In this document: one piece after another, positions 20,375 through 31,772 of the stretch
Numbering within the stretch: position 1 is the first letter of the stretch
Layout: each line of letters opens with the position of its first letter
Assembly: GCA_013152925.1 (NCBI GenBank)
Contig: JAADFK010000190.1
Coordinates: forward strand, 1-47,846
DNA: 47,846 nt
Direction: 5' to 3'
Origin: Acidobacteriota bacterium
Lineage (GTDB): Bacteria; Acidobacteriota; Thermoanaerobaculia; Thermoanaerobaculales; Sulfomarinibacteraceae
Program-made: the position numbers and the translations under genes
The notes under the pieces: model-generated
Seen by the model: only the letters and a program-made list of their open reading frames with translations
Told to the model about the DNA's origin: nothing
The model's database searches: none

Positions 20375-21181
20375 TCAGAACAGGATCTTCGTCAGGAAGA
20401 AGTCGGAAAGGAGGATCGAGAGGGAGGCCATCACCACCGCGGCGGTTGTCGAACGGCCGACCCCCTCGGCGCCGCCGGTTGTGTAGAAGCCCTTGGCGCA
20501 CCCGGTTCCGGCCAGAATCATGCCGAAGAACGCAGCCTTGATCAGGCCCGAGGTCAGGTCGTTGACCTCCAGGTACTGGAACGTGCTGTGCCAGTACTGG
20601 ACGGGATTGGCGTGGAAGAGCCCCACGGAAACGAACCAGCCGCCGAGCACGCCGACGCCGTCGGCCACCAGGGTCAGGATTGGCAGCATCAGGATGGACG
20701 CCCCCACGCGCGGCACCACCAGGTACTGCACCGGTTCCACCGCCATGGCGTAGAGAGCGTCGATCTGCTCCGTCACCCGCATGGTCCCCAGCTCGGCGGC
20801 GATGGCCGATCCCACGCGGCCGGCAACGATCAGTCCCGTCAGCACCGGCGCCAGCTCCCGGGTCAGGGAGAGGGCGACCACCGAGCCCACATACCCCTCG
20901 GCGTGAAAGCGCTCGAAGCCGCGGTAGGTCTGGAGGGCCATCACCATCCCCGTAAACATGGCGGTCAGCAGGACGACCGGCATGGAATCGTAGCCCACCC
21001 GCACCATCTGGCGCAGCCATTCCGCAAAATCGAAGGGGCGCCGGAGGGTCCACAGGAAAGCCTGGGTCAGGACGTAGAAGAAGCGGCCCAACTCCTCGAG
21101 CAGCTCCACCGAGGACCGGCCGATGCTGTCGAGCCAGCGGAAAACCAGACCCGGGTCCCGGCTCTCTGTGGCCGCTACCAT
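20375..21181 (-). CDS. mlaE: Phospholipid ABC transporter permease MlaE
   Basis: Inner-membrane permease of 268 residues with the MlaE-family pattern: an amphipathic N-terminal helix and about five membrane segments. The conserved core runs from LTRELAPVLTGLIVAGRVG to EQIDALYAMAVEP, and the end (VMASLSILLSDFFLTKILF) is typical. It forms the lipid-transport channel with MlaF and MlaD. The start overlaps the dnaB stop by seven bases. No mlaA, mlaB or mlaC gene is adjacent. Confidence 0.94.
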   Translation of the reverse strand: MVAATESRDPGLVFRWLDSIGRSSVELLEELGRFFYVLTQAFLWTLRRPFDFAEWLRQMVRVGYDSMPVVLLTAMFTGMVMALQTYRGFERFHAEGYVGSVVALSLTRELAPVLTGLIVAGRVGSAIAAELGTMRVTEQIDALYAMAVEPVQYLVVPRVGASILMLPILTLVADGVGVLGGWFVSVGLFHANPVQYWHSTFQYLEVNDLTSGLIKAAFFGMILAGTGCAKGFYTTGGAEGVGRSTTAAVVMASLSILLSDFFLTKILF

Positions 21182-22560
21182 TGTTCCTCGGTCTCCTCGC
21201 GGGAAAGCTCGGCGTTCTCGAAACGGGTGATCTCGTGCTGGAAGACCAGCTTGATCTCGCCGATGGGACCGTTCCGCTGCTTGGCGATGATGAGCTGGGC
21301 GAGTCGATCGTCTTCCACGCTTTGATCATATACCGAAGGTCTGACGATGAACAGGACCACGTCGGCGTCCTGCTCGATGCTGCCGGACTCGCGCAGATCG
21401 CTCAGCTGAGGGCGGTGGTCACCACCACGGCGATCGGGCTGCCGGGAGAGCTGGGAGAGCACCAGCATCGGAACGTCCAGCTCCTTGGCCGTCGCCTTGA
21501 GGGCCCGCGAAATGGCCGAAACCTCCTCGTTCCGGCTGTTGAACCGCCCCCCGCCGGACATCAGCTGCAGGTAGTCCACCAGCACCAGGTCCAGGCCGTG
21601 CTCCTGCTTGAGGCGGCGGGCCTTGGCGGAAAGCTCCAGCACGGTCATCGCCGGCGTGTCATCGATCCAGATCTGGGCGTCTTCCAGGGACTGGGCCGCC
21701 AGGGTCAGCTTGGGCCAGTCCGAACGCATCAGGTAGCCCGAGTTGATTCGCTTCTGATCGACCCGTGCCACCGACGAGAGCATCCGCCGTACCAGCTGCT
21801 CGGCGGACATCTCCAGGGAAAACACCGCCACCCGCTTGCCGTTCCTGAGCGCCGCGTGGGTGCAGACGTTGACGCCGAGGGATGTCTTGCCCATGGAGGG
21901 CCGCGCCGCCAGGATGATCAGGTCCTTGGGCTGAAGGCCCAGGGTCATCTCGTCCAGCCGCGTGAACCCCGTTTCGATACCGGTGACGCCCGAGCGGCGC
22001 TCACCGGCCGCCTCCAGCATCTCCACCTCGTGCCGCGCCAGCTTGCGCACGTGGACCAGGCCACCAGCCAGGGTGTCTTCGGCGATGCGGAACACGTCCC
22101 GCTGGGCGGTTTCCACGGCCTCGCGTGCCTCGCCCTGATCGAGCGTACAGGTGGTCAGGATGCTCTGGGCTGCCCGGATCAGCCGCCGCTTGACCGCCTT
22201 GTCGTGCACGATCTCCGCGTAGTGGGCGACGTTGGCCACGTCTGGCACCGTGTCCACCAGGGACGACAGATAGGATGCCCCTCCAACCCGTTCCAGGAGC
22301 CCATCTTCACGGAGATGGTTGGTCAGGGTCAGAAGATCCGCCGCCTGTCCCCGTTCGTGCAGGCCAATACAGCCCTCGAAGATCAGCTGATGGGACTCCA
22401 GGTAAAACTCCTCGGGCCGGAGCTTGTCCAGAACCTGGAGAAGGGCAGCCGGGTCGAGCAACACCGCTCCCAGGACGGCCCGCTCGGCTTCCGGCTCGTG
22501 GGGAAAGCGAAGGGCGGCATCCTGGGACATCGGTGCAGAGGTGGCGATCTCGGCGCTCAT
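21175..22560 (-). CDS. dnaB: Replicative DNA helicase DnaB
   Basis: Hexameric replicative helicase of 461 residues, the usual length. The N-terminal helical domain (PHEPEAERAVLGAVLLDP) is followed by the RecA-like motor with Walker A ARPSMGKTS (K225), Walker B LVLVDYLQLM, and DLRESGSIEQDAD near the end, a standard DnaB motif. No intein is present. It is the first gene of an operon with mlaEFD and radA. A -10-like hexamer nine bases before the ATG suggests transcription starts at or near the start codon. Confidence 0.97.
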   Translation of the reverse strand: MSAEIATSAPMSQDAALRFPHEPEAERAVLGAVLLDPAALLQVLDKLRPEEFYLESHQLIFEGCIGLHERGQAADLLTLTNHLREDGLLERVGGASYLSSLVDTVPDVANVAHYAEIVHDKAVKRRLIRAAQSILTTCTLDQGEAREAVETAQRDVFRIAEDTLAGGLVHVRKLARHEVEMLEAAGERRSGVTGIETGFTRLDEMTLGLQPKDLIILAARPSMGKTSLGVNVCTHAALRNGKRVAVFSLEMSAEQLVRRMLSSVARVDQKRINSGYLMRSDWPKLTLAAQSLEDAQIWIDDTPAMTVLELSAKARRLKQEHGLDLVLVDYLQLMSGGGRFNSRNEEVSAISRALKATAKELDVPMLVLSQLSRQPDRRGGDHRPQLSDLRESGSIEQDADVVLFIVRPSVYDQSVEDDRLAQLIIAKQRNGPIGEIKLVFQHEITRFENAELSREETEEQW

Positions 22561-22781: not shown

Positions 22782-23462
22782 ATGGGACAAACACAACGGG
22801 CCAAGAGCCTGGCAGCAGAAACCAAGATCCTCGACGCCGCCCTTCATCTCTTTTCACGACAGGGGTTTCAAGCAACCTCGGTGCGTGAGATCGCCGAGCT
22901 GGCCGGCGTTTCCGTGGGCAACGTCTACCATCACTTCGGCAACAAGGAGGCGATCTTCCAGCGGCTCATCGACCGTTACTGGGAGGCCCTGCTCGACCCC
23001 GATCTTCCGCTCAACCAGGTCTTCCGGCAGGCACAGTTTCCCGATGATCTCGAGCTGGCGGCCTCGGCCATCGAGCAGATCGTCGATCAGCACCAGGAAG
23101 AGATCCTCCTCATCTACGTGGACGTCATCGAGTTTCGCGGCGAGCACATCCGGACGTTCTACGAAACCATGGCCGACCGTTTCCAGGAGGCCTACGCCGA
23201 TTCCTTTGCCAAGGCCAAGAGGGAAGGTCGGCTGGGAGACATCGACCCCATGGTTGCGGTGATGACGGCCTGCCGTTGGCTGTTCTACTTCTTCACCGTC
23301 GAGAAATGCTTCGGTGTGCCCATGCACCTGGGGAGAGGATCCAAGGAGGTTGTGGATGAGTTCATTCGCATCCTCCGGTACGGCGTACTGCCACGCGACG
23401 ACGGCCACCGTCCACGTGTGGCCACGGACAAGGACGGAACAACGTCTGGGAGGAGAGCATGA
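22782..23462 (+). CDS. TetR/AcrR-family transcriptional regulator
   Basis: Regulator of 226 residues. The N-terminal TetR helix-turn-helix is clear at about 14-60 (ILDAALHLFSRQGF, then VREIAELAGVSVGNVYHHF). The C-terminal ligand-binding part is helical and of unknown specificity. AAGGAG at 22770-22775 gives a well-spaced ribosome-binding site. The stop overlaps the start of the TonB-dependent receptor gene, so regulator and receptor are co-transcribed. The operator just upstream makes autoregulation likely, with a fatty acid or acyl-CoA as a plausible effector given the downstream enzymes; that effector is an inference. Confidence 0.9.
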   Translation: MGQTQRAKSLAAETKILDAALHLFSRQGFQATSVREIAELAGVSVGNVYHHFGNKEAIFQRLIDRYWEALLDPDLPLNQVFRQAQFPDDLELAASAIEQIVDQHQEEILLIYVDVIEFRGEHIRTFYETMADRFQEAYADSFAKAKREGRLGDIDPMVAVMTACRWLFYFFTVEKCFGVPMHLGRGSKEVVDEFIRILRYGVLPRDDGHRPRVATDKDGTTSGRRA

Positions 23463-26260
23463 TGCGAGGAGGGATTTCATTCCAGAAAGCGGTGCGTACC
23501 GTAGCAAACTTGGGAATCGCAGGCCTGGCGGCCGTGATGATCGTCGCCGGAGCCGCTCCGGTGGAGGCGCAGGTCAACACGTGCAGGCTGGAGATCACGA
23601 CCCTGGACGAGAACAGGGTGGGGTTACCGGGAGCGACGATCCGCGTGGTTTCCGTGGACAGCGGGCTCAAGCGCGTGGCGGTGACCGATGCTGCCGGCGT
23701 CGCCACGATCCCGGCGCTTCCACCGGGCACGTACGATGTGCACGTGGAGCTCGAGGGCTTTGCGCCCGTGGACCAGAAGGGGCTCGAGCTCAGGGTTGGC
23801 CAGACCGCGCGCCTGGTCATCAGCCTCCGGCCCACCATGAGCGAGACCATCACGGTCACCGCCAGGGCGCCCCTGGTGGACGTCTACAAGTCCGACACGT
23901 CCACCAACATCGTCCCGGAGCAGATCGAGCAGCTCCCGACGCCGGACCGCGATTTCCAGAAGCTGGCCTTCATCGCCCCGTCGGTTCAGCGCGAGCGGGG
24001 CGGCTACCGGTTCATCAGCGGCGGACCCGTCATCGGCTCCGTCGGCAACGCCAGTCAGTCGACGATCATGGTGGACGGTGTCGACTTTACCGACCAGGCC
24101 CTGGGCCTCGCCAGGACCCGCTTCAGCCAGGACGCCATCCGCGAGTTTCGTGTCATCACCAACCGCTTCGATGCCGAGATCGGCGGTTCGGCAGGCGGCG
24201 CCCTGTCCATCGTGACACGGTCGGGAACCAACGAGCTCCACGGCTCGGCCTTCGGTTTCTTCCGCTCGGATTCCCTGCGCTCCACCGGCGCGCTGGAATC
24301 CGGGAACCAGGACTTCTCCCGGTACCAGGTCGGCTTCACCCTCGGTGGCCCCATCGTCAGGGACCGCACGCACTACTTCCTCTCCTCGGAGTACATCGAC
24401 GAGAGCAACATCACCCTCTTCCGCCCGGGCGGGGCCTTCGCCGACCTGGCCAGGGATTACGATCACCCATTCACCGAGCTCCTCGGCCTGGCCACTCTGG
24501 ATCACCAGGCCACGGCCAGCCAGCTGCTGCGGGCCACGTTCGTTTACGAGAAGCACCGGGAGGACAACTTCCGGGTCGGCGGCGTGTGTGATATCTCCTG
24601 CGGCCAGTCCCTCAACCGGGACAACTGGAACCTGATCTTCAGCCACACGTGGGTCATCTCGGACGACAGGCTCAACGAGCTCCGGGTCCAGGCCGGCAAC
24701 CGGAAGTACGTGGAGCCGTTGAACTCCAACGCAGTTTCCGAATGGTTCTCCTCGGGGACGACGCTCCGTATCGGAGCCAACATCGTCGGCCGCATTCTCG
24801 GCGACGGCGATTACTACGGAATCAACGACACGTACAACTGGCACCTGGCCGGCGCCGGCGGCGCCCACGACCTCAAGATCGGCGGCGGCATCCAGTGGAT
24901 CGACGAGGAGTCCGACATCCCCCTCTACCCCACCGGCCTGTTCGTCTACCTGACGGACGACCGCTCGTTGCCGCTCGTCTACGCGTACGGTACCGGCTCC
25001 GCAGACGTCAACAAGGACACGAGGCTCTACCACGCTTTCGTCCAGGACGAGTGGAGGGTCCGGCCGAACCTGACGCTGACGTTCGGCCTGCGCTACGACT
25101 ACGACTCCAAGGGAAACAACCCCGATTTCACCCATCCTCTGGAACCCGAGAAGCGGCACGCCGACACGAACAACATCCAGCCACGCTTCGGCTTCACCTG
25201 GGATCCCGCCGACAACGGCCGCACCGTGGTCCGCGGTGGCGTCGGCCTGTTCACCGGACGCTACCTCCTGGTGCCGGCCTTCGCCGAGCTCCAGCAGAAC
25301 GGCGTCACGGGGAGGATCCTGCGGTCGAACCTCAACGGTCTCGTCCTGGGCCTGCCGCCCGCCTACTGGCTGGACCCCGACGATCCCCAGAATACCGGCA
25401 TTCCTCTCCCGCCGGACAGCACCCTCCTGGCACCCAGCCTCAAGGCTCCCGAGGCCACCCAGGCGAGCCTCGGTGTGACCCGGCAGCTCGGTGATACCGG
25501 ACTGTACCTCGATCTCGAGGCCATCTATGCCAAGGGCCGGGAGGAGATCATCGTCCGTGACACGAACTTCGGCGGAAACTCGAACCCCGTCAGGCTCAAC
25601 CCCGCCTGGAACCAGATCAACACGTACACCAATGAGGGGCGCTCCAAGTACACGGCATTCATCGCCAGCCTCAACGGATTCATCCCCGGCGGTCACATGA
25701 TCACCGCTTCCGTAACGGTGGCGAGCAAGAAGAACATCTCCGACGACTTCAGCCCGGACTTCCCCTTCGGCTACCCCTCGGACCCGGCGGACATCGACGC
25801 CGAGTACGGACGCAGCCGCAACGACGAGCGCTTCCGCTTCGTTCTGTCCGGTATCTTCCATCTGCCATGGGGCCTGACACTGGCGCCGGTCTACCAGTAC
25901 GGCTCGGGCCAGCCGTGGAACCACCTCCTGGGATATGACTACAACGGCGACGGCAAGAACTCGGACCGGCCCGCCGGCGTGAAGCGGAACGATAAGGACG
26001 GCCCCCGCTACAGCAACCTGAACCTGCGGCTGACCAAGACCTTCCAGGTTGGGGACGGCGAGCTCGAAATCATCATCGAGGCGTTCAACGTCTTCAATAC
26101 CACCAATTACGACGTCAACTCCGTGGATCAATTCGAGTACCTCTCCGGACCCACCCTGGCCAATCCGGATCGCTCCTACGTGCCCAACCCCAATTTCGGG
26201 AAGTACCGGGCGACCCTCGATCCGCGCGAGATCCAGCTGGGGATGAGGTACAGGTTCTAG
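23459..26260 (+). CDS. TonB-dependent outer-membrane receptor, Oar-like, with carboxypeptidase-regulatory-like N-terminus
   Basis: Outer-membrane protein of 933 residues. A signal peptide covers about 1-37 (ends APVEAQ). A carboxypeptidase-regulatory-like beta-sandwich is at about 41-124 (GLPGATIRVVSVDSGLKR, PPGTYDVHVELEGF), then a plug domain (about 125-245, with TIMVDGVDF and SGTNELHGSAFGF) and a long beta-barrel ending in the aromatic LGMRYRF. This layout is typical of acidobacterial and Bacteroidota receptors. The substrate is unknown; the enzyme genes downstream suggest a lipophilic or carboxylic compound. The start overlaps tetR; ATG 23462 is an equally good start. Confidence 0.9.
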   Translation: MMRGGISFQKAVRTVANLGIAGLAAVMIVAGAAPVEAQVNTCRLEITTLDENRVGLPGATIRVVSVDSGLKRVAVTDAAGVATIPALPPGTYDVHVELEGFAPVDQKGLELRVGQTARLVISLRPTMSETITVTARAPLVDVYKSDTSTNIVPEQIEQLPTPDRDFQKLAFIAPSVQRERGGYRFISGGPVIGSVGNASQSTIMVDGVDFTDQALGLARTRFSQDAIREFRVITNRFDAEIGGSAGGALSIVTRSGTNELHGSAFGFFRSDSLRSTGALESGNQDFSRYQVGFTLGGPIVRDRTHYFLSSEYIDESNITLFRPGGAFADLARDYDHPFTELLGLATLDHQATASQLLRATFVYEKHREDNFRVGGVCDISCGQSLNRDNWNLIFSHTWVISDDRLNELRVQAGNRKYVEPLNSNAVSEWFSSGTTLRIGANIVGRILGDGDYYGINDTYNWHLAGAGGAHDLKIGGGIQWIDEESDIPLYPTGLFVYLTDDRSLPLVYAYGTGSADVNKDTRLYHAFVQDEWRVRPNLTLTFGLRYDYDSKGNNPDFTHPLEPEKRHADTNNIQPRFGFTWDPADNGRTVVRGGVGLFTGRYLLVPAFAELQQNGVTGRILRSNLNGLVLGLPPAYWLDPDDPQNTGIPLPPDSTLLAPSLKAPEATQASLGVTRQLGDTGLYLDLEAIYAKGREEIIVRDTNFGGNSNPVRLNPAWNQINTYTNEGRSKYTAFIASLNGFIPGGHMITASVTVASKKNISDDFSPDFPFGYPSDPADIDAEYGRSRNDERFRFVLSGIFHLPWGLTLAPVYQYGSGQPWNHLLGYDYNGDGKNSDRPAGVKRNDKDGPRYSNLNLRLTKTFQVGDGELEIIIEAFNVFNTTNYDVNSVDQFEYLSGPTLANPDRSYVPNPNFGKYRATLDPREIQLGMRYRF

Positions 26261-26357: not shown

Positions 26358-27140
26358 ATGATCGAGACAGGGCTCGAGGGCAAGGCGGTCATCGTCACGG
26401 GGGGAGCGGCGGGCATCGGCCGGGAAACGGCACGCCGTTTTGCCGCCGAAGGCTGCCGGGTTGCGGTATGGGATGTCAACGAGGGAGCCGCCGGCGCGGT
26501 ACTGACCGAGATCGAGGAGGCCGGGGGTCACGGGACGTTCCTGGCCGTCGATGTGGCGGACACGGCAGCGGTGGACAGCGCCGCTCGGGAGATCGTCGAT
26601 CGATGGGGCGGGATCGATGTCATCGTCAACAACGCCGGGATTGTCCGGGACGGACAGCTCGTCAAGCTCAAGGACGGCACGGTCGTTCGGCGGATGAGCA
26701 ACGAGCAGTGGGAGGCCGTGGTCGGCATCAACCTGCGCGGCGTCTTCAACTGTACCCGGGCGGCGGTGCCCTCCATGATCGAGCGCGGGGGCGGCGTTGT
26801 GCTCAACGCATCCTCCGTGGTGGGCCTGTACGGAAACTTCGGCCAGACGAACTACGTGGCCACCAAGGCCGGCGTCATCGGCATGACCCGGACATGGGCC
26901 CGCGAGCTCGGCCGGTACGGGATCCGCGTCAACGCCGTGGCGCCCGGGTTCATCAAGACCGAGATCCTCGCCTCCATGCCGCAGAAGGTCCTCGATTCCA
27001 TGGTGTCCCACACGCCCATCGGGCGCATGGGGCAAACCGCGGACGTCGCCAACGCCTACGTGTGGCTGGCCTCCGGCGCCGCCTCCTTCATCACGGGTGC
27101 GGTACTCTCGGTGGATGGAGGACTGGTGGTCGGAACGTGA
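26358..27140 (+). CDS. Short-chain dehydrogenase/reductase, FabG-like (3-oxoacyl reductase type)
   Basis: Classical SDR of 260 residues. The cofactor loop TGGAAGIG is near residue 13, NNAG near 92, and the catalytic residues S153, Y166 and K170 lie in a FabG-like context (SSVVGLYGNFGQTNY). The C-terminus ends in the usual GAVLSVDGG. An insert between NNAG and the helix after it (KLKDGTVVRRM) is found in a branch of FabG-like enzymes. It probably reduces a 3-oxoacyl thioester with NAD(P)H, but the substrate is not shown by the sequence. It follows the receptor gene by 97 bases and has GAGGAGG before the ATG. Confidence 0.88.
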   Translation: MIETGLEGKAVIVTGGAAGIGRETARRFAAEGCRVAVWDVNEGAAGAVLTEIEEAGGHGTFLAVDVADTAAVDSAAREIVDRWGGIDVIVNNAGIVRDGQLVKLKDGTVVRRMSNEQWEAVVGINLRGVFNCTRAAVPSMIERGGGVVLNASSVVGLYGNFGQTNYVATKAGVIGMTRTWARELGRYGIRVNAVAPGFIKTEILASMPQKVLDSMVSHTPIGRMGQTADVANAYVWLASGAASFITGAVLSVDGGLVVGT

Positions 27141-27215: not shown

Positions 27216-28223
27216 ATGACGCGGTGTGCACAGATCGTATCCACCGGACGCTTCGTCCCGGAGCGTGAGGTCACCAATGACGAGCTCCGCCGGCGCTTCG
27301 ATCCTGTTGTGCCGGGCGTCGTGGACACGTTCGAGGCCGCCTCGAACATCGGGACACGGCGTTGGGCGCCGCAGGACTGGGCCACCTCCGACGTGGCGCT
27401 TCCCGCCGCGCGACAGGCGCTGGAGAAGGCCGGCCTGCAGCCGGAAGACGTGGATCTGATCATCCTGGGAACCGATTCTCCGGACTACATCACGCCCGCC
27501 ACCTCCGTGGTGCTCCAGCACAAGCTGGGCGCAGTGAACGCCGGCACCTTCGACGTGGGGTGTGCCTGCGCCTCCTTTCCGACGGGCCTGGCCATCGGCT
27601 CCGGGATCATCGCCACGAACCCCTCCATCCAGACGGTGCTGGTGGTGGGCGTGTACCTCATGCACAAGCTGGCCGATCCCCTGGACCCGTTGATCTTCTT
27701 CTACGGAGACGGCGCCGGCGCCGCCGTGCTGCGCCCGTCCTCCCGGCCGGGGTTCGTCGCCTCGGCCTTCCGGGCCGACGGGGCGTACCACCGGCACTGG
27801 GGGATCTACTCCGGCGGCACCGCCGAGCCGGCCTCGGAAGCCTCCGTTCGAGAGGGCCGCACGCGGGTCCGGATGCTCGAGCGCTTCCCCCCGGAGATCA
27901 ATCACGAGGGATGGCCGAGGCTGGTCCGCCGTCTCGCCTCCGAGGGGGGATTCTCCATCGACGAGATCGATCTCGCCATCTTCACCCAGGTCCGCCGGCC
28001 CTCCATCGAGCTGGTCATGGAAGACCTCGGCCTGCCCATGGAGCGAACCCACACGATCATGGAGAAATGGGGGTACACGGGCTCGGCCTGCGTGGGGATG
28101 GCGCTGGACGACGCGGTGGACGAGGGGAAGGTCCGTCCGGGCGACCTGCTCGTGCTCGTGGGCTCCGGCGTCGGCTACAACCAGGCGGCGGTGGCGTTCC
28201 GGATGGGGGCGATCCGGCCGTGA
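27216..28223 (+). CDS. KAS III-like (FabH-like) thiolase-fold enzyme with altered active site
   Basis: Protein of 335 residues with the FabH fold signatures: DVGCACASF with the likely nucleophile C118, FYGDGAGAAVL, and a C-terminal GSGVGYNQAAVAFRMG. Alignment by eye to FabH puts T257 (IFTQVRR) where the family has the His of HQAN, R260 at the Asn of that motif, and Y287 (WGYTGSAC) where GNTS carries the second catalytic Asn. Without His and Asn, normal decarboxylating condensation is doubtful; acyl transfer or a non-decarboxylating reaction is possible. It lies between a FabG-like reductase and an acyl-CoA ligase, with a strong GAGGAGGGAGG upstream. Confidence 0.85.
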   Translation: MTRCAQIVSTGRFVPEREVTNDELRRRFDPVVPGVVDTFEAASNIGTRRWAPQDWATSDVALPAARQALEKAGLQPEDVDLIILGTDSPDYITPATSVVLQHKLGAVNAGTFDVGCACASFPTGLAIGSGIIATNPSIQTVLVVGVYLMHKLADPLDPLIFFYGDGAGAAVLRPSSRPGFVASAFRADGAYHRHWGIYSGGTAEPASEASVREGRTRVRMLERFPPEINHEGWPRLVRRLASEGGFSIDEIDLAIFTQVRRPSIELVMEDLGLPMERTHTIMEKWGYTGSACVGMALDDAVDEGKVRPGDLLVLVGSGVGYNQAAVAFRMGAIRP

Positions 28224-28262: not shown

Positions 28263-29894
28263 ATGACCGGCCCAGACCGGCCATCCCCGGAGGGTGTCGC
28301 ACGACCCGTCCCTCCCCCGCCTCTTCACGCCACACCCGACATCTGCGGGAGCCGGACCGTGCTCCACGGTGATCTGCTCGGAGAACGGGCCCGGCTGACC
28401 CCGACCGCGACCGCCCTCGTGGAAGCGGGGAGCGGCCGCAGGTACACCTACGCCGAGCTCGACTCCCGGGCCACGGCGTGGGCCCGGTTGCTGCGCGGGC
28501 TCGGCCTGGCGGCGGGCGAGACGGCCGGGCTGCTGTGCGGCAACCGTGTGGACTTCCTGGACGTCTTCTTCGCCGCCGGCAAGTCCGGGGTGGTGCTGGT
28601 GCCGCTCAACACCCGCCTGGCTGCGCCGGAGCTGGAGCAGATCGTCCGCGATTCGGGGATGCGCGTGCTGATCCACGACGGCGGGCTGGCGGACACCGTG
28701 CGCCGACTCAAGGAGCGAGTGGAGCTGGACGCATGGGTGGCGCTGGACGAGCCGCTGAACGGCGACCGGCCGGCGGGGGCGCTGCTCTCGGCGCAGGGGG
28801 ACGGCGCCTTCGAGGGGGTGAGGCCCGCCCCCGAGGACCTCCACTGCCTGCTCTACACCAGCGGCACCACCGGCAACCCCAAGGGCGTGATGATCCCGCA
28901 CCGCATGGTGACCTGGAACGGTTACAACACGGTGGTCTGCTGGCAGCTCACGGCAGACGACGTCAGCCCCATCTTCACGCCGCTCTACCATGCCGGGGGG
29001 CTCGGCGCGTTTCTCATACCCATCTTCACGGTGGGCGGGACCATCGTCCTCCACGAGCATTTCGACGCCGAGGAGGTGTGGACCACCATCGAGCGCGAGC
29101 GGTGCACGGTGGTCCTCGGCGTTCCCACCATCTGGAAGATGCTCGCCGACAGCCCCGCCTTCCGGACGGCGGACCTCTCTCACCTTCGCTGGCTCATCTC
29201 GGGCGGCGCGCCCCTGCCGCCCTCGTTGATCGATCGCTACCGGGAGCGCGGCGTCGTGCTCCGGCAGGGGTACGGGTTGACCGAGGCCGGCGTCAACTGC
29301 TTTGCCATGACCGACCGTGATGCCTGGGAACGCCCCGGCTCCATCGGCAAGCCGTTGATGTTCACCGAGGCGCGCATCGTGGACGCTGACGGCCACGAGC
29401 TTCCCGCCGGCGAGGTGGGCGAGCTGCTGCTCCGCGGTCCCCACCTCTCGTCCGGCTACTGGCGCAATCCCGGGGCCACGGCGGCGGCGTACGACCGGGA
29501 GGGCTGGTTCCACACGGGCGACCTCGCCCGGCGCGACGGGGAAGGTTTCTTCTACATCGCCGGGAGGCTCACGGAGATGTTCATCTCGGGCGGCGTCAAC
29601 ATCCACCCGGCCGAGGTGGAGTCGGCGCTCGGGGAGCACCCCGCGGTCGCCGAGGCGGCAGTGGTCGGCATCCCCCACCCCACCTGGGGGGAGGTCGGGG
29701 TGGCCTTGGTCGTCCCGCGGACCGGCACGAGCCCCTCATCCCACGAGCTGGCCACCTTCCTCGAGACACGGATCGCCCCTTACAAGATCCCGAAACGATT
29801 CGTCCTCGTCGGCGAGATCCCGCGGACGGCGTACGGCAAGGTGAAACGCGCCGGGCTCATCCGGCGGCTGGCCCGTGAGGGAGAAGGCCGTTGA
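28263..29894 (+). CDS. Acyl-CoA synthetase / AMP-dependent CoA ligase
   Basis: Adenylate-forming enzyme of 543 residues, of the FadD/class I CoA ligase type. The P-loop-like YTSGTTGNPKGV is at 198-209, followed by the YGLTEAG motif, the hinge region WFHTGDLARRDGEGF, GRLTEMFISGGVN and the C-terminal lysine in YGKVKR. It should activate a carboxylic acid to its CoA thioester through an acyl-AMP; chain length or aromaticity cannot be read from the sequence. ATG 28263 has no ribosome-binding site and adds a Pro-rich stretch of about 32 residues; GTG at 28359, behind GGGAG, may be the true start. Confidence 0.9.
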   Translation: MTGPDRPSPEGVARPVPPPPLHATPDICGSRTVLHGDLLGERARLTPTATALVEAGSGRRYTYAELDSRATAWARLLRGLGLAAGETAGLLCGNRVDFLDVFFAAGKSGVVLVPLNTRLAAPELEQIVRDSGMRVLIHDGGLADTVRRLKERVELDAWVALDEPLNGDRPAGALLSAQGDGAFEGVRPAPEDLHCLLYTSGTTGNPKGVMIPHRMVTWNGYNTVVCWQLTADDVSPIFTPLYHAGGLGAFLIPIFTVGGTIVLHEHFDAEEVWTTIERERCTVVLGVPTIWKMLADSPAFRTADLSHLRWLISGGAPLPPSLIDRYRERGVVLRQGYGLTEAGVNCFAMTDRDAWERPGSIGKPLMFTEARIVDADGHELPAGEVGELLLRGPHLSSGYWRNPGATAAAYDREGWFHTGDLARRDGEGFFYIAGRLTEMFISGGVNIHPAEVESALGEHPAVAEAAVVGIPHPTWGEVGVALVVPRTGTSPSSHELATFLETRIAPYKIPKRFVLVGEIPRTAYGKVKRAGLIRRLAREGEGR

Positions 29895-30670
29895 GCTCCG
29901 GCGGGATTCTGCACCACCGGGTCGATGGAACCGGCGAGCCGCTGTTGTTGCTCAACGGGATCGCCATGACCATGGCCGCATGGGAGCCCGTGGCGGGGCC
30001 CCTGGCACGTCGGTTCCGGGTGATCCGTTGTGACCTGCGCGGCCAGCTGGGCTCGCCCGGCCCCCCGCCCGCGGATCTCGCGGGACACGTGGCCGACGTG
30101 GCGGCGCTCCTCGAGATCCTGGACGCCGCACCGGCCCACGTGCTGGCAACCTCCTTCGGCGCCCTGGTGGCGGTGATGCTGGCGGCCGGCCGGCCCGAGC
30201 TGATTCGCTCCCTGATCCTGGTGGCCGCGGCGGACCGGATCGACCGGGCGATGCAGGAGGAGGTGGAACGCTGGCGGGCGGCCTGCCGCGAGGCCCTGAG
30301 CTCCGGCGACAGGCGCCACCTGGTGGATGTGATGCACCCGGCGGCCTTCTCGGAGGAGTTCCGCCGGCGGCATGCGGCAGCACTGGCCGCCCGGCGATCC
30401 CGGATCCAGGAGCTCCCCGACCGCTGGCTCACCGATCTCGACGCCCTGATGGCGTCCATCGAGCACGTCGACCTGCGACCGGAGCTGGCCGCCGTTCGCT
30501 GCCCCACGCTGGTGGTGGCGGCCCGGCACGACGGCTTCATCCCACGAGAGCGCACCGAGGCACTGGCGGCGGCGATCCCCGGGGCGCGGCTCACCGTCCT
30601 CGAAGGCGCCGGTCACGCCGCCGTGGTGGAGAAACCGCTCACGATCGTCCGCCTCGTGGAGAGCCTGTAG
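29891..30670 (+). CDS. Alpha/beta-hydrolase fold protein
   Basis: Hydrolase of 259 residues. The predicted triad is S88 (in ATSFG, where the first Gly of the usual GxSxG is Ala), D214 (ARHDGFIP) and H242 (GAGHAAV). The N-terminal LLLLNGIAMTMAAW supplies the oxyanion region. The cap is short and helical. It could be a thioesterase, esterase or C-C hydrolase. TTG at 29891 is taken as the start because it overlaps the ligase stop (TTGA) and follows GGGAGAAGG. It ends the six-gene cassette, 25 bases before the stop of the convergent aroB. Confidence 0.85.
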   Translation: MSSGGILHHRVDGTGEPLLLLNGIAMTMAAWEPVAGPLARRFRVIRCDLRGQLGSPGPPPADLAGHVADVAALLEILDAAPAHVLATSFGALVAVMLAAGRPELIRSLILVAAADRIDRAMQEEVERWRAACREALSSGDRRHLVDVMHPAAFSEEFRRRHAAALAARRSRIQELPDRWLTDLDALMASIEHVDLRPELAAVRCPTLVVAARHDGFIPRERTEALAAAIPGARLTVLEGAGHAAVVEKPLTIVRLVESL

Positions 30671-30695: not shown

Positions 30696-31772
30696 TCAGC
30701 CGTGGCGTTGCAGGTCGCCGAGGACCTCGAGAATCTCCGCCGGCTCGATCCGTTGTCTCAGCACGACACCCTCGTCGGTGGGCAGGACCCAGGCGATGCC
30801 TCCGGCGTCCCGTTTCTTGTCCACCGCCAGGTGGGCCAGGACGGTCCCGGCATCGAGGTCGTGGACCGGCGGCAGCGGTTCCAGACAGGCAACGGCATCG
30901 AGGAGCCGCCGGCCGGCCCCGGCCGAGAGCACGCCGCGGCTCCGGGCCAGCCGCACCGCCGCACGCAGCCCCCAGGCGACGGCCTCGCCGTGAAGAAAAC
31001 GCTCGTAGCCGGTGGCGGCCTCCAGAGCGTGGGCCACCGTGTGGCCCAGGTTGAGGGCCTGCCGCGCGCCGGCCTCGCGCTCGTCCTCCCGGACAACGCG
31101 CGCCTTGACACGGACCGAGCCGGCCACCAGGGCGATCCACCGTTCGGCCCGGCCCTTGGAGTACCCCCGCACGGCGTCCGGAATGAGCTCGAGCAGGGAC
31201 CGGTCACCGATCCACGCCGTCTTGATCGCCTCGGCAAGGCCCGCCCTGAGCTCCCGCAGGGGCAAGGTGGAGAGGGTGTCCACGTCGGCCACCACCAGGG
31301 AGGGCGGCCAGAAGGCGCCGATCAGGTTCTTGCCCTCGTCCAGGTTGATGCCCGTCTTGCCGCCCACCGAAGCGTCCACCATGGCCAGCAGGGTCGTCGG
31401 TACGGCGGCCCAGGAGATCCCCCGCAGAAAGATCGCCGCGGCAAACCCCGTCATGTCGGTGACGACCCCCCCGCCCACGCCCACGAGGAACGCTCCCCGC
31501 CCCGCGCCACGGCGCAGCAGCCAGCGACAGATCCGTTCCACCTGCGGCCACCGCTTCGCCGGTTCCCCGGCCGGCAGCTCCAGCGGCGGGTCCGATCCCA
31601 GGCGGGCCGCCGCCGTGGCCCCCCACAGCGGGCCGACCGTGGCATCGGTGACCACCGGCCATCCCCGGCCCGCCCGAGCCTCCTCCAGGAGATGCGGCAG
31701 CTCGGGGAGGATCTGTTCCCCCACGAGCACCCGGTAGGCACCCCGCTCGGACGCGACCTCGATCCGTTCCAT
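30696..31772 (-). CDS. aroB: 3-dehydroquinate synthase AroB
   Basis: Shikimate-pathway enzyme of 358 residues that turns DAHP into 3-dehydroquinate with NAD and a divalent metal. Family motifs include GGGVVTDMTGF, PTTLLAMVDASVGGKTGIN, the substrate-binding ELRAGLAEAIK and the metal-site HGEAVAWG. It lies downstream of, and on the same strand as, a TonB-dependent receptor, but a strong hairpin stands between them. The other shikimate gene here, aroC, is about 5 kb away on the opposite strand. Confidence 0.95.
   Translation of the reverse strand: MERIEVASERGAYRVLVGEQILPELPHLLEEARAGRGWPVVTDATVGPLWGATAAARLGSDPPLELPAGEPAKRWPQVERICRWLLRRGAGRGAFLVGVGGGVVTDMTGFAAAIFLRGISWAAVPTTLLAMVDASVGGKTGINLDEGKNLIGAFWPPSLVVADVDTLSTLPLRELRAGLAEAIKTAWIGDRSLLELIPDAVRGYSKGRAERWIALVAGSVRVKARVVREDEREAGARQALNLGHTVAHALEAATGYERFLHGEAVAWGLRAAVRLARSRGVLSAGAGRRLLDAVACLEPLPPVHDLDAGTVLAHLAVDKKRDAGGIAWVLPTDEGVVLRQRIEPAEILEVLGDLQRHG

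Follow-up and report, generated by a model that had tools for sequence, protein, structure and literature searches.

In FabH, residues His244 and Asn274 stabilise the enolate that arises from decarboxylation of malonyl-ACP (PMC10054515). In archaeal HMG-CoA synthase the catalytic pair consists of Cys114 and Glu82, while PhlA, which has neither the catalytic Cys nor the Glu, provides a precedent for a KAS III-like subunit that is non-catalytic (PMC6392133). The acyltransferases CerJ and ChlB3 use Cys-His-Asp instead of Cys-His-Asn, and the triad of ChlB3 is Cys113-His296-Asp301 (PMC9573744).

The window, i.e., the whole stretch of 47,846 nucleotides analysed here (contig JAADFK010000190.1 of an Acidobacteriota bacterium), contains on the plus strand an open reading frame (27216..28223) with a clean translation of 335 amino acids, which matches Pfam ACP_syn_III and ACP_syn_III_C. 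Its product belongs to a KAS III-like subfamily that we designate CTY for the residues Cys/Thr/Tyr. The results from phmmer searches indicate that the best PDB match is 4dfe (E value 1.2e-40) and that E. coli FabH (PDB: 1hn9/6x7r) is aligned over the whole length (E value 2.5e-34); neither alignment has gaps across the two catalytic motifs. C112 of FabH corresponds to C118 (codon 27567..27569, plus strand, as are all codons below), the presumed acyl-accepting nucleophile. The catalytic H244 in the FabH motif VPHQAN is replaced by T257 (27984..27986) in IFTQVR, and the catalytic N274 in GNTS by Y287 (28074..28076) in GYTG. The window protein has no alternative Asn near Y287, and none of the several residues around T257 is a His; thus a shifted His or Asn is excluded at the sequence level, and a gap or shifted-motif error is ruled out by the ungapped FabH alignments. 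The original prediction, that Cys118 is kept while Thr257 and Tyr287 take the places of His and Asn, is borne out, numbering included, as is its opinion that a gap error was unlikely.

The AlphaFold2 model (pLDDT 95.6, pTM 0.94) superposes over its full length on 4dfe (Z 46.0, 321 residues, 2.0 Å) and on E. coli FabH (Z 45.0, 1.6 Å), with aligned lengths of 316-321 residues across FabH structures. The matches listed by Foldseek and VIA-align are FabH-like entries and, lower down, PqsD and PqsBC. The window protein does not reach the NCBIfam cut-offs for fabH TIGR00747 (169.3 vs 292.1 bits), PRK09352 (183.9 vs 249 bits), PRK06840 (NF005308, '3-oxoacyl-ACP synthase'; 159.5 vs 315 bits) or HMG-CoA synthase NF003274 (55.2 vs 244 bits), nor the gathering score of Pfam Thiolase_N (18 vs 26.4 bits). 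No NCBIfam cut-off is passed by a protein of the CTY clade, and a literature search, its coverage lying mostly outside subscription journals, found no paper on the subfamily. CTY is a real KAS III-like subfamily without a name in the libraries searched, in support of the earlier suggestion that the branch may be undescribed.

In the class to which the window belongs, 57 of 149 genomes have a match at E value ≤ 1e-60, and 80 loci were taken from genome contigs. The CTY motif was found in 12 of the 301 Chloroflexota genomes screened, one more carrying Cys/Asn/Tyr, and in 2 of 349 Pseudomonadota genomes. The resulting alignment includes 100 distinct CTY proteins, 41 Cys/His/Asn rows (FabH-like apart from 11 HMG-CoA synthase copies) and 10 HMG-CoA synthases. 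The CTY proteins are relatives with 40-82% identity and come from Acidobacteriota, Chloroflexota, Elusimicrobiota and a few other groups. Cys118, Thr257, Gln258, Gly286 and Tyr287 are present in 100/100, Thr257 and Tyr287 by construction, as the set was chosen by these two residues. Independently of this selection, all collected relatives above 40% identity are CTY, with the sole exception of a Chloroflexota protein (L154; G185:C8:28636-29631) which has Cys/Asn/Tyr and forms a basal branch of the set. Variation of Cys118 among close relatives, the outcome named beforehand as adverse to the prediction, did not occur. Comparison with three relatives gave a dN of 0.12-0.18 at a dS of ~1, a ratio of approximately 0.1-0.2 since dS is near saturation. 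The fixed site and the low dN/dS together place the gene under strong purifying constraint with an altered site, and decay to a pseudogene is ruled out.

Because His244 and Asn274 serve decarboxylation and both are lost in every CTY relative, the data argue against KAS III decarboxylation. The full-length FabH fold and an identity to FabH of roughly 24-32% would be expected of an ordinary decarboxylating KAS III in which the substitutions are tolerated. We consider this highly improbable, as both enolate-stabilising residues are replaced in all relatives except L154, where only the His was lost differently, and as FabH positions T81, F87, L142, L205 and F304 are also altered in the CTY alignment. 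Moreover, no ACP-like gene was detected among the called ORFs nearby, and the window genome encodes separate canonical Cys/His/Asn FabH paralogues (L002, L003, L004). The canonical FabHs of the same genomes as the relatives likewise retain His/Asn, and the three Streptomyces and Sinorhizobium plasmid matches, at 31-35% identity, are canonical Cys/His/Asn proteins.

Residues which are 100% fixed in CTY and differ from FabH include Asp87 (T81), Tyr147 (D140), Met149 (L142), Pro225 (V212), Asn229 (A216; codon 27900..27902), Trp233 (L220), His279 (V266; 28050..28052), Met282 (L269), Gly289 (S276) and Cys292 (S279; 28089..28091), of which Asn229 and His279 are subfamily-specific; Cys116 (A110) and Ser317 (F304) are near-fixed. 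The FabH residue Phe87, which we take to reach in from the partner subunit, falls in alignment column 93, which is Thr or Ser in 100/100 CTY proteins. Asp87 (27474..27476), present in 100/100, lies in the column of the catalytic Glu of HMG-CoA synthase, which is found in 10/10 of these enzymes, and the Glu-to-Cys spacing in the aligned HMG-CoA synthases is 32 residues, matching Glu82/Cys114. By alignment, Asp87 is a candidate answer to the earlier question of whether any other His, Asn or Glu enters the pocket. Judged from these columns, CTY retains the nucleophile together with an acidic residue in the general-base column of a non-decarboxylating relative, and the hydroxyls of Thr257 and Tyr287, standing in place of the FabH enolate stabilisers, could still donate hydrogen bonds. 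The retained Cys and the position of Asp87 would also suit an HMG-CoA synthase-like condensation, in which acetyl-Cys118, deprotonated by Asp87, would add to a keto-acyl-CoA or another keto compound, so that two substrates are joined. However, His and Asn are present in 10/10 HMG-CoA synthases, and the importers, CoA activation, thiolase and apparently NAD-type SDR of the operons make such a condensation improbable.

A maximum-likelihood tree was built from 79 proteins; its midpoint root serves for drawing only, and long branches occur among the FabH and HMG-CoA synthase sequences. In it, the CTY set, i.e., 46 rows including the Cys/Asn/Tyr variant, has a support of 86/96 and joins PRK06840 (100/100) at 97/89, while 20 FabH-like proteins (86/57) stand apart from both. 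The PRK06840 cut-off of 315 bits is passed by two Acidobacteriota proteins (415 and 463 bits). PRK06840 proteins match CerJ (E value 1.4e-15, phmmer) and carry the motif GHxGQxD where CTY has GYTGSAC. The five-residue His-Asp spacing of this motif is that of the ChlB3 triad (PMC9573744), and the same positions in CTY are Tyr287 and Cys292; from the spacing, the two are putatively equivalent in structure to the His-Asp pair of PRK06840 and ChlB3. Given this CerJ/ChlB3-like motif, the PRK06840 name '3-oxoacyl-ACP synthase' may be wrong too.

In several Acidobacteriota (L050:5944-7993, L079, L085, L083, L088, L091), a PRK06840 gene adjoins the CTY gene or lies close to it, and in Geothrix fermentans the two are in tandem, about 43 bp apart. 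On haloarchaeal plasmids, a PRK06840 gene is directly 3' of a complete branched-chain-type ABC transporter (L192:3328-10017, L193:3801-10005, L194:2803-9008) with a slight overlap into the final permease gene, which is unexpected company for a supposed fatty-acid enzyme.

The relationship to PRK06840, with its CerJ-like spacing and a like importer adjoining it in haloarchaea, and the altered catalytic set of CerJ and ChlB3 themselves raise the alternative of an acyltransferase without C-C chemistry, in which Cys118 would move an acyl group from CoA to an oxygen, nitrogen or sulphur atom of an imported molecule. We regard it as unlikely, since the CTY pair is Tyr287/Cys292 and not His/Asp, and since the neighbouring hydrolase, ligase, SDR and thiolase genes suit breakdown more than decoration.

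In the window, the CTY gene is the fourth of a six-gene operon on the plus strand. It begins with a TetR-family regulator (22782..23462; PF00440), which has a 4-bp overlap with the gene for a conserved TonB-dependent receptor (23459..26260), an importer with a carboxypeptidase-regulatory-like N-terminal domain. The third gene encodes a FabG-like SDR dehydrogenase (26358..27140). Downstream of CTY are an AMP-forming acyl-CoA ligase (28263..29894; PF00501/PF13193) and, with a 4-bp overlap, an alpha/beta hydrolase (29891..30670), for which the nearest NCBIfam model is the PcaD enol-lactonase, below cut-off. Both flanks are on the minus strand: a DnaB-type helicase (21175-22560), read by eye, and a 3-dehydroquinate synthase (30696-31772), identified by profile search. 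In SDR enzymes, an Asp that terminates strand beta-2 indicates a preference for NAD. This residue (Asp39 in the window SDR) is found in 59/61 sequences, with Tyr/Lys kept, and the operon SDR looks NAD-type.

Among 79 loci, gene counts were 63 for SDR, 43 for TetR and 35 for ligase; an SCP2-type thiolase was present in 24 + 13 (second cluster), i.e., about half, and a TonB receptor in 24 + 7. Many Acidobacteriota keep the order TetR/TonB/SDR/KAS/(second hydrolase)/ligase/hydrolase/thiolase/hydrolase. Chloroflexota loci comprise SDR, KAS, a CoA transferase or AMP ligase, a branched-chain-type ABC transporter and a hydrolase resembling PcaD, and these are often joined by a DUF35 protein and an SCP2-type thiolase. 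Those of Elusimicrobiota contain SDR and KAS followed by a CoA transferase and canonical thiolase or by a lipase-like protein. SDR and KAS are thus constant, while the importers (TonB, ABC, porin-like, sodium symporter) and the CoA-activating step (ligase or transferase) interchange. A motif scan of the called ORFs of the 79 loci, in which a small gene could be missed, revealed no carrier-protein (ACP)-like ORF. A catabolic context of the CTY operons is well supported; they probably serve the uptake and breakdown of a small acid or ester, not fat synthesis, and we infer the direction itself.

The CTY gene of Nitrococcus mobilis (63% identity; L098:6968-13163) is outside the operon, adjoins an NAD-glutamate dehydrogenase gene and looks like a horizontal acquisition. 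In one Acidobacteriota genome the CTY gene is present twice in tandem, and the two products have 74% and 72% identity to the window protein (L043; G119:C45:46565-48762). Regulators of ~390 amino acids, apparently with two TetR N-terminal domains per chain, are encoded beside KAS-like genes in Geothrix and Elusimicrobia (L050:4428-5609; cluster c15 in L107, L109-L115). CTY genes ~70% identical to those of Acidobacteriota were found in records labelled Bacillota, Acidimicrobiia and Myxococcota (L065, L078, L093), contigs that are possibly mis-binned. A 105-residue protein encoded 3' of the Geothrix thiolase was considered as a DUF35 protein and rejected, as it has no Pfam match and no Zn-ribbon on reading.

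We propose that CTY is a non-decarboxylating KAS III-like subfamily with the site Cys118/Asp87/Thr257/Tyr287, acting in the catabolism of CoA esters by thiolase-like cleavage through acyl-Cys118, a reading which we hold as a real possibility, if somewhat short of probable, and for which we infer both reaction and substrate. An ester or acid would enter through the TonB receptor, the place of which is taken in relatives by a sodium symporter, a porin or an ABC transporter of the branched-chain type; the alpha/beta hydrolases would release the acid from the ester; and the CoA thioester would be formed by the AMP ligase or, in other loci, by a CoA transferase. The NAD-type SDR might then oxidise a 3-hydroxyacyl-CoA to the 3-ketoacyl-CoA, the keto carbon of which would be attacked by Cys118. 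An acyl-CoA enolate would leave, held by the Thr257 and Tyr287 hydroxyls and protonated by Asp87, and the acyl group on Cys118 would be passed to CoA in a thiolase-like retro-Claisen reaction. The acyl-Cys intermediate, the roles of Asp87, Thr257 and Tyr287, and the substrate are all putative. That the subfamily descends from KAS III, cleaves C-C bonds of 3-ketoacyl-CoA by retro-Claisen chemistry at a Cys-Asp-Thr-Tyr site and belongs to a widespread unrecognised catabolic pathway is a more speculative statement, and a somewhat doubtful one. The original prediction suggested that acyl transfer or joining without decarboxylation may occur. The loss of both enolate-stabilising residues speaks against decarboxylation, while acyl transfer and joining are putative; as the gene neighbourhoods suggest breakdown of acids or esters taken up by the cell, cleavage is equally likely as joining or more so.

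Against cleavage, the SCP2-type thiolase in about half of the loci could itself perform that step and leave another to CTY; where a thiolase is co-encoded, CTY may act on another bond or carry out a plain, CerJ-like acyl transfer. NAD preference and reaction direction are, furthermore, read from sequence only, and PhlA is an example of a KAS III-like subunit without catalytic activity (PMC6392133). CTY might be a structural or sensor subunit with no catalysis of its own. Its partners in a complex would be the DUF35 protein and SCP2-type thiolase encoded next to it, as for PhlA in the Pseudomonas Phl acylase, or another KAS III-like protein, as for PqsB. The thiolase and DUF35 genes are adjacent in Chloroflexota, KAS adjoins the thiolase in Geothrix relatives, and Geothrix has the tandem PRK06840-CTY pair. 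Such a role is nevertheless quite improbable, because the Cys and acidic residue lost in PhlA are invariant in CTY (Cys118 and Asp87), and many loci have no thiolase/DUF35 pair.

A plasmid-borne CTY relative is annotated as 'ketoacyl-ACP synthase III', a label that implies fatty-acid synthesis. It is probably wrong for the whole subfamily, because the rebuilt site is fixed across phyla and the operons are of an import-and-activate type. If the thiolase-like reading is true, the thiolase superfamily is able to run C-C chemistry without the His/Asn pair, and a catabolic route is revealed in poorly cultured bacterial phyla; the retro-Claisen reaction would be a further route besides thiolases and beta-keto acid cleavage enzymes. 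Geothrix fermentans and Nitrococcus mobilis are cultured hosts of CTY, and the function is therefore testable.

Among known systems, OleA has a Cys-His-Asn site with Glu117 contributed by the neighbouring subunit. This Glu presumably falls in alignment column 93, that of FabH F87, and the SDR, KAS-like, AMP ligase and alpha/beta hydrolase genes match OleD/A/C/B by superfamily, as we understand that cluster. An OleABCD hydrocarbon cluster was rejected, as CTY has neither the His/Asn nor, in column 93, the Glu of OleA, and as some genes of the operon give way in relatives to importers, CoA transferases and thiolases. CTY is like PhlA of the Pseudomonas Phl acylase in being KAS III/HMG-CoA synthase-like and, in some operons, encoded with an SCP2-type thiolase and DUF35, but PhlA has lost both the Cys and the acidic residue kept in CTY. 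Like archaeal HMG-CoA synthase, CTY has the nucleophilic Cys, and the residue aligned with the Glu of that enzyme is the likewise acidic but shorter Asp; HMG-CoA synthase keeps His and Asn and is distant in the tree. CerJ and ChlB3 resemble CTY in combining the KAS III fold with a changed catalytic set, and they perform acyl transfer with no chain extension; their Cys-His-Asp differs from the Tyr/Cys of CTY, the correspondence being placed by spacing alone. FabH shares the full-length fold and the position of the catalytic Cys, but in CTY His244 is changed to Thr, Asn274 to Tyr and Thr81 to Asp, in a remodelled pocket and a catabolic-looking operon. PRK06840 is the nearest group in the tree, and its gene adjoins that of CTY in some Geothrix relatives.
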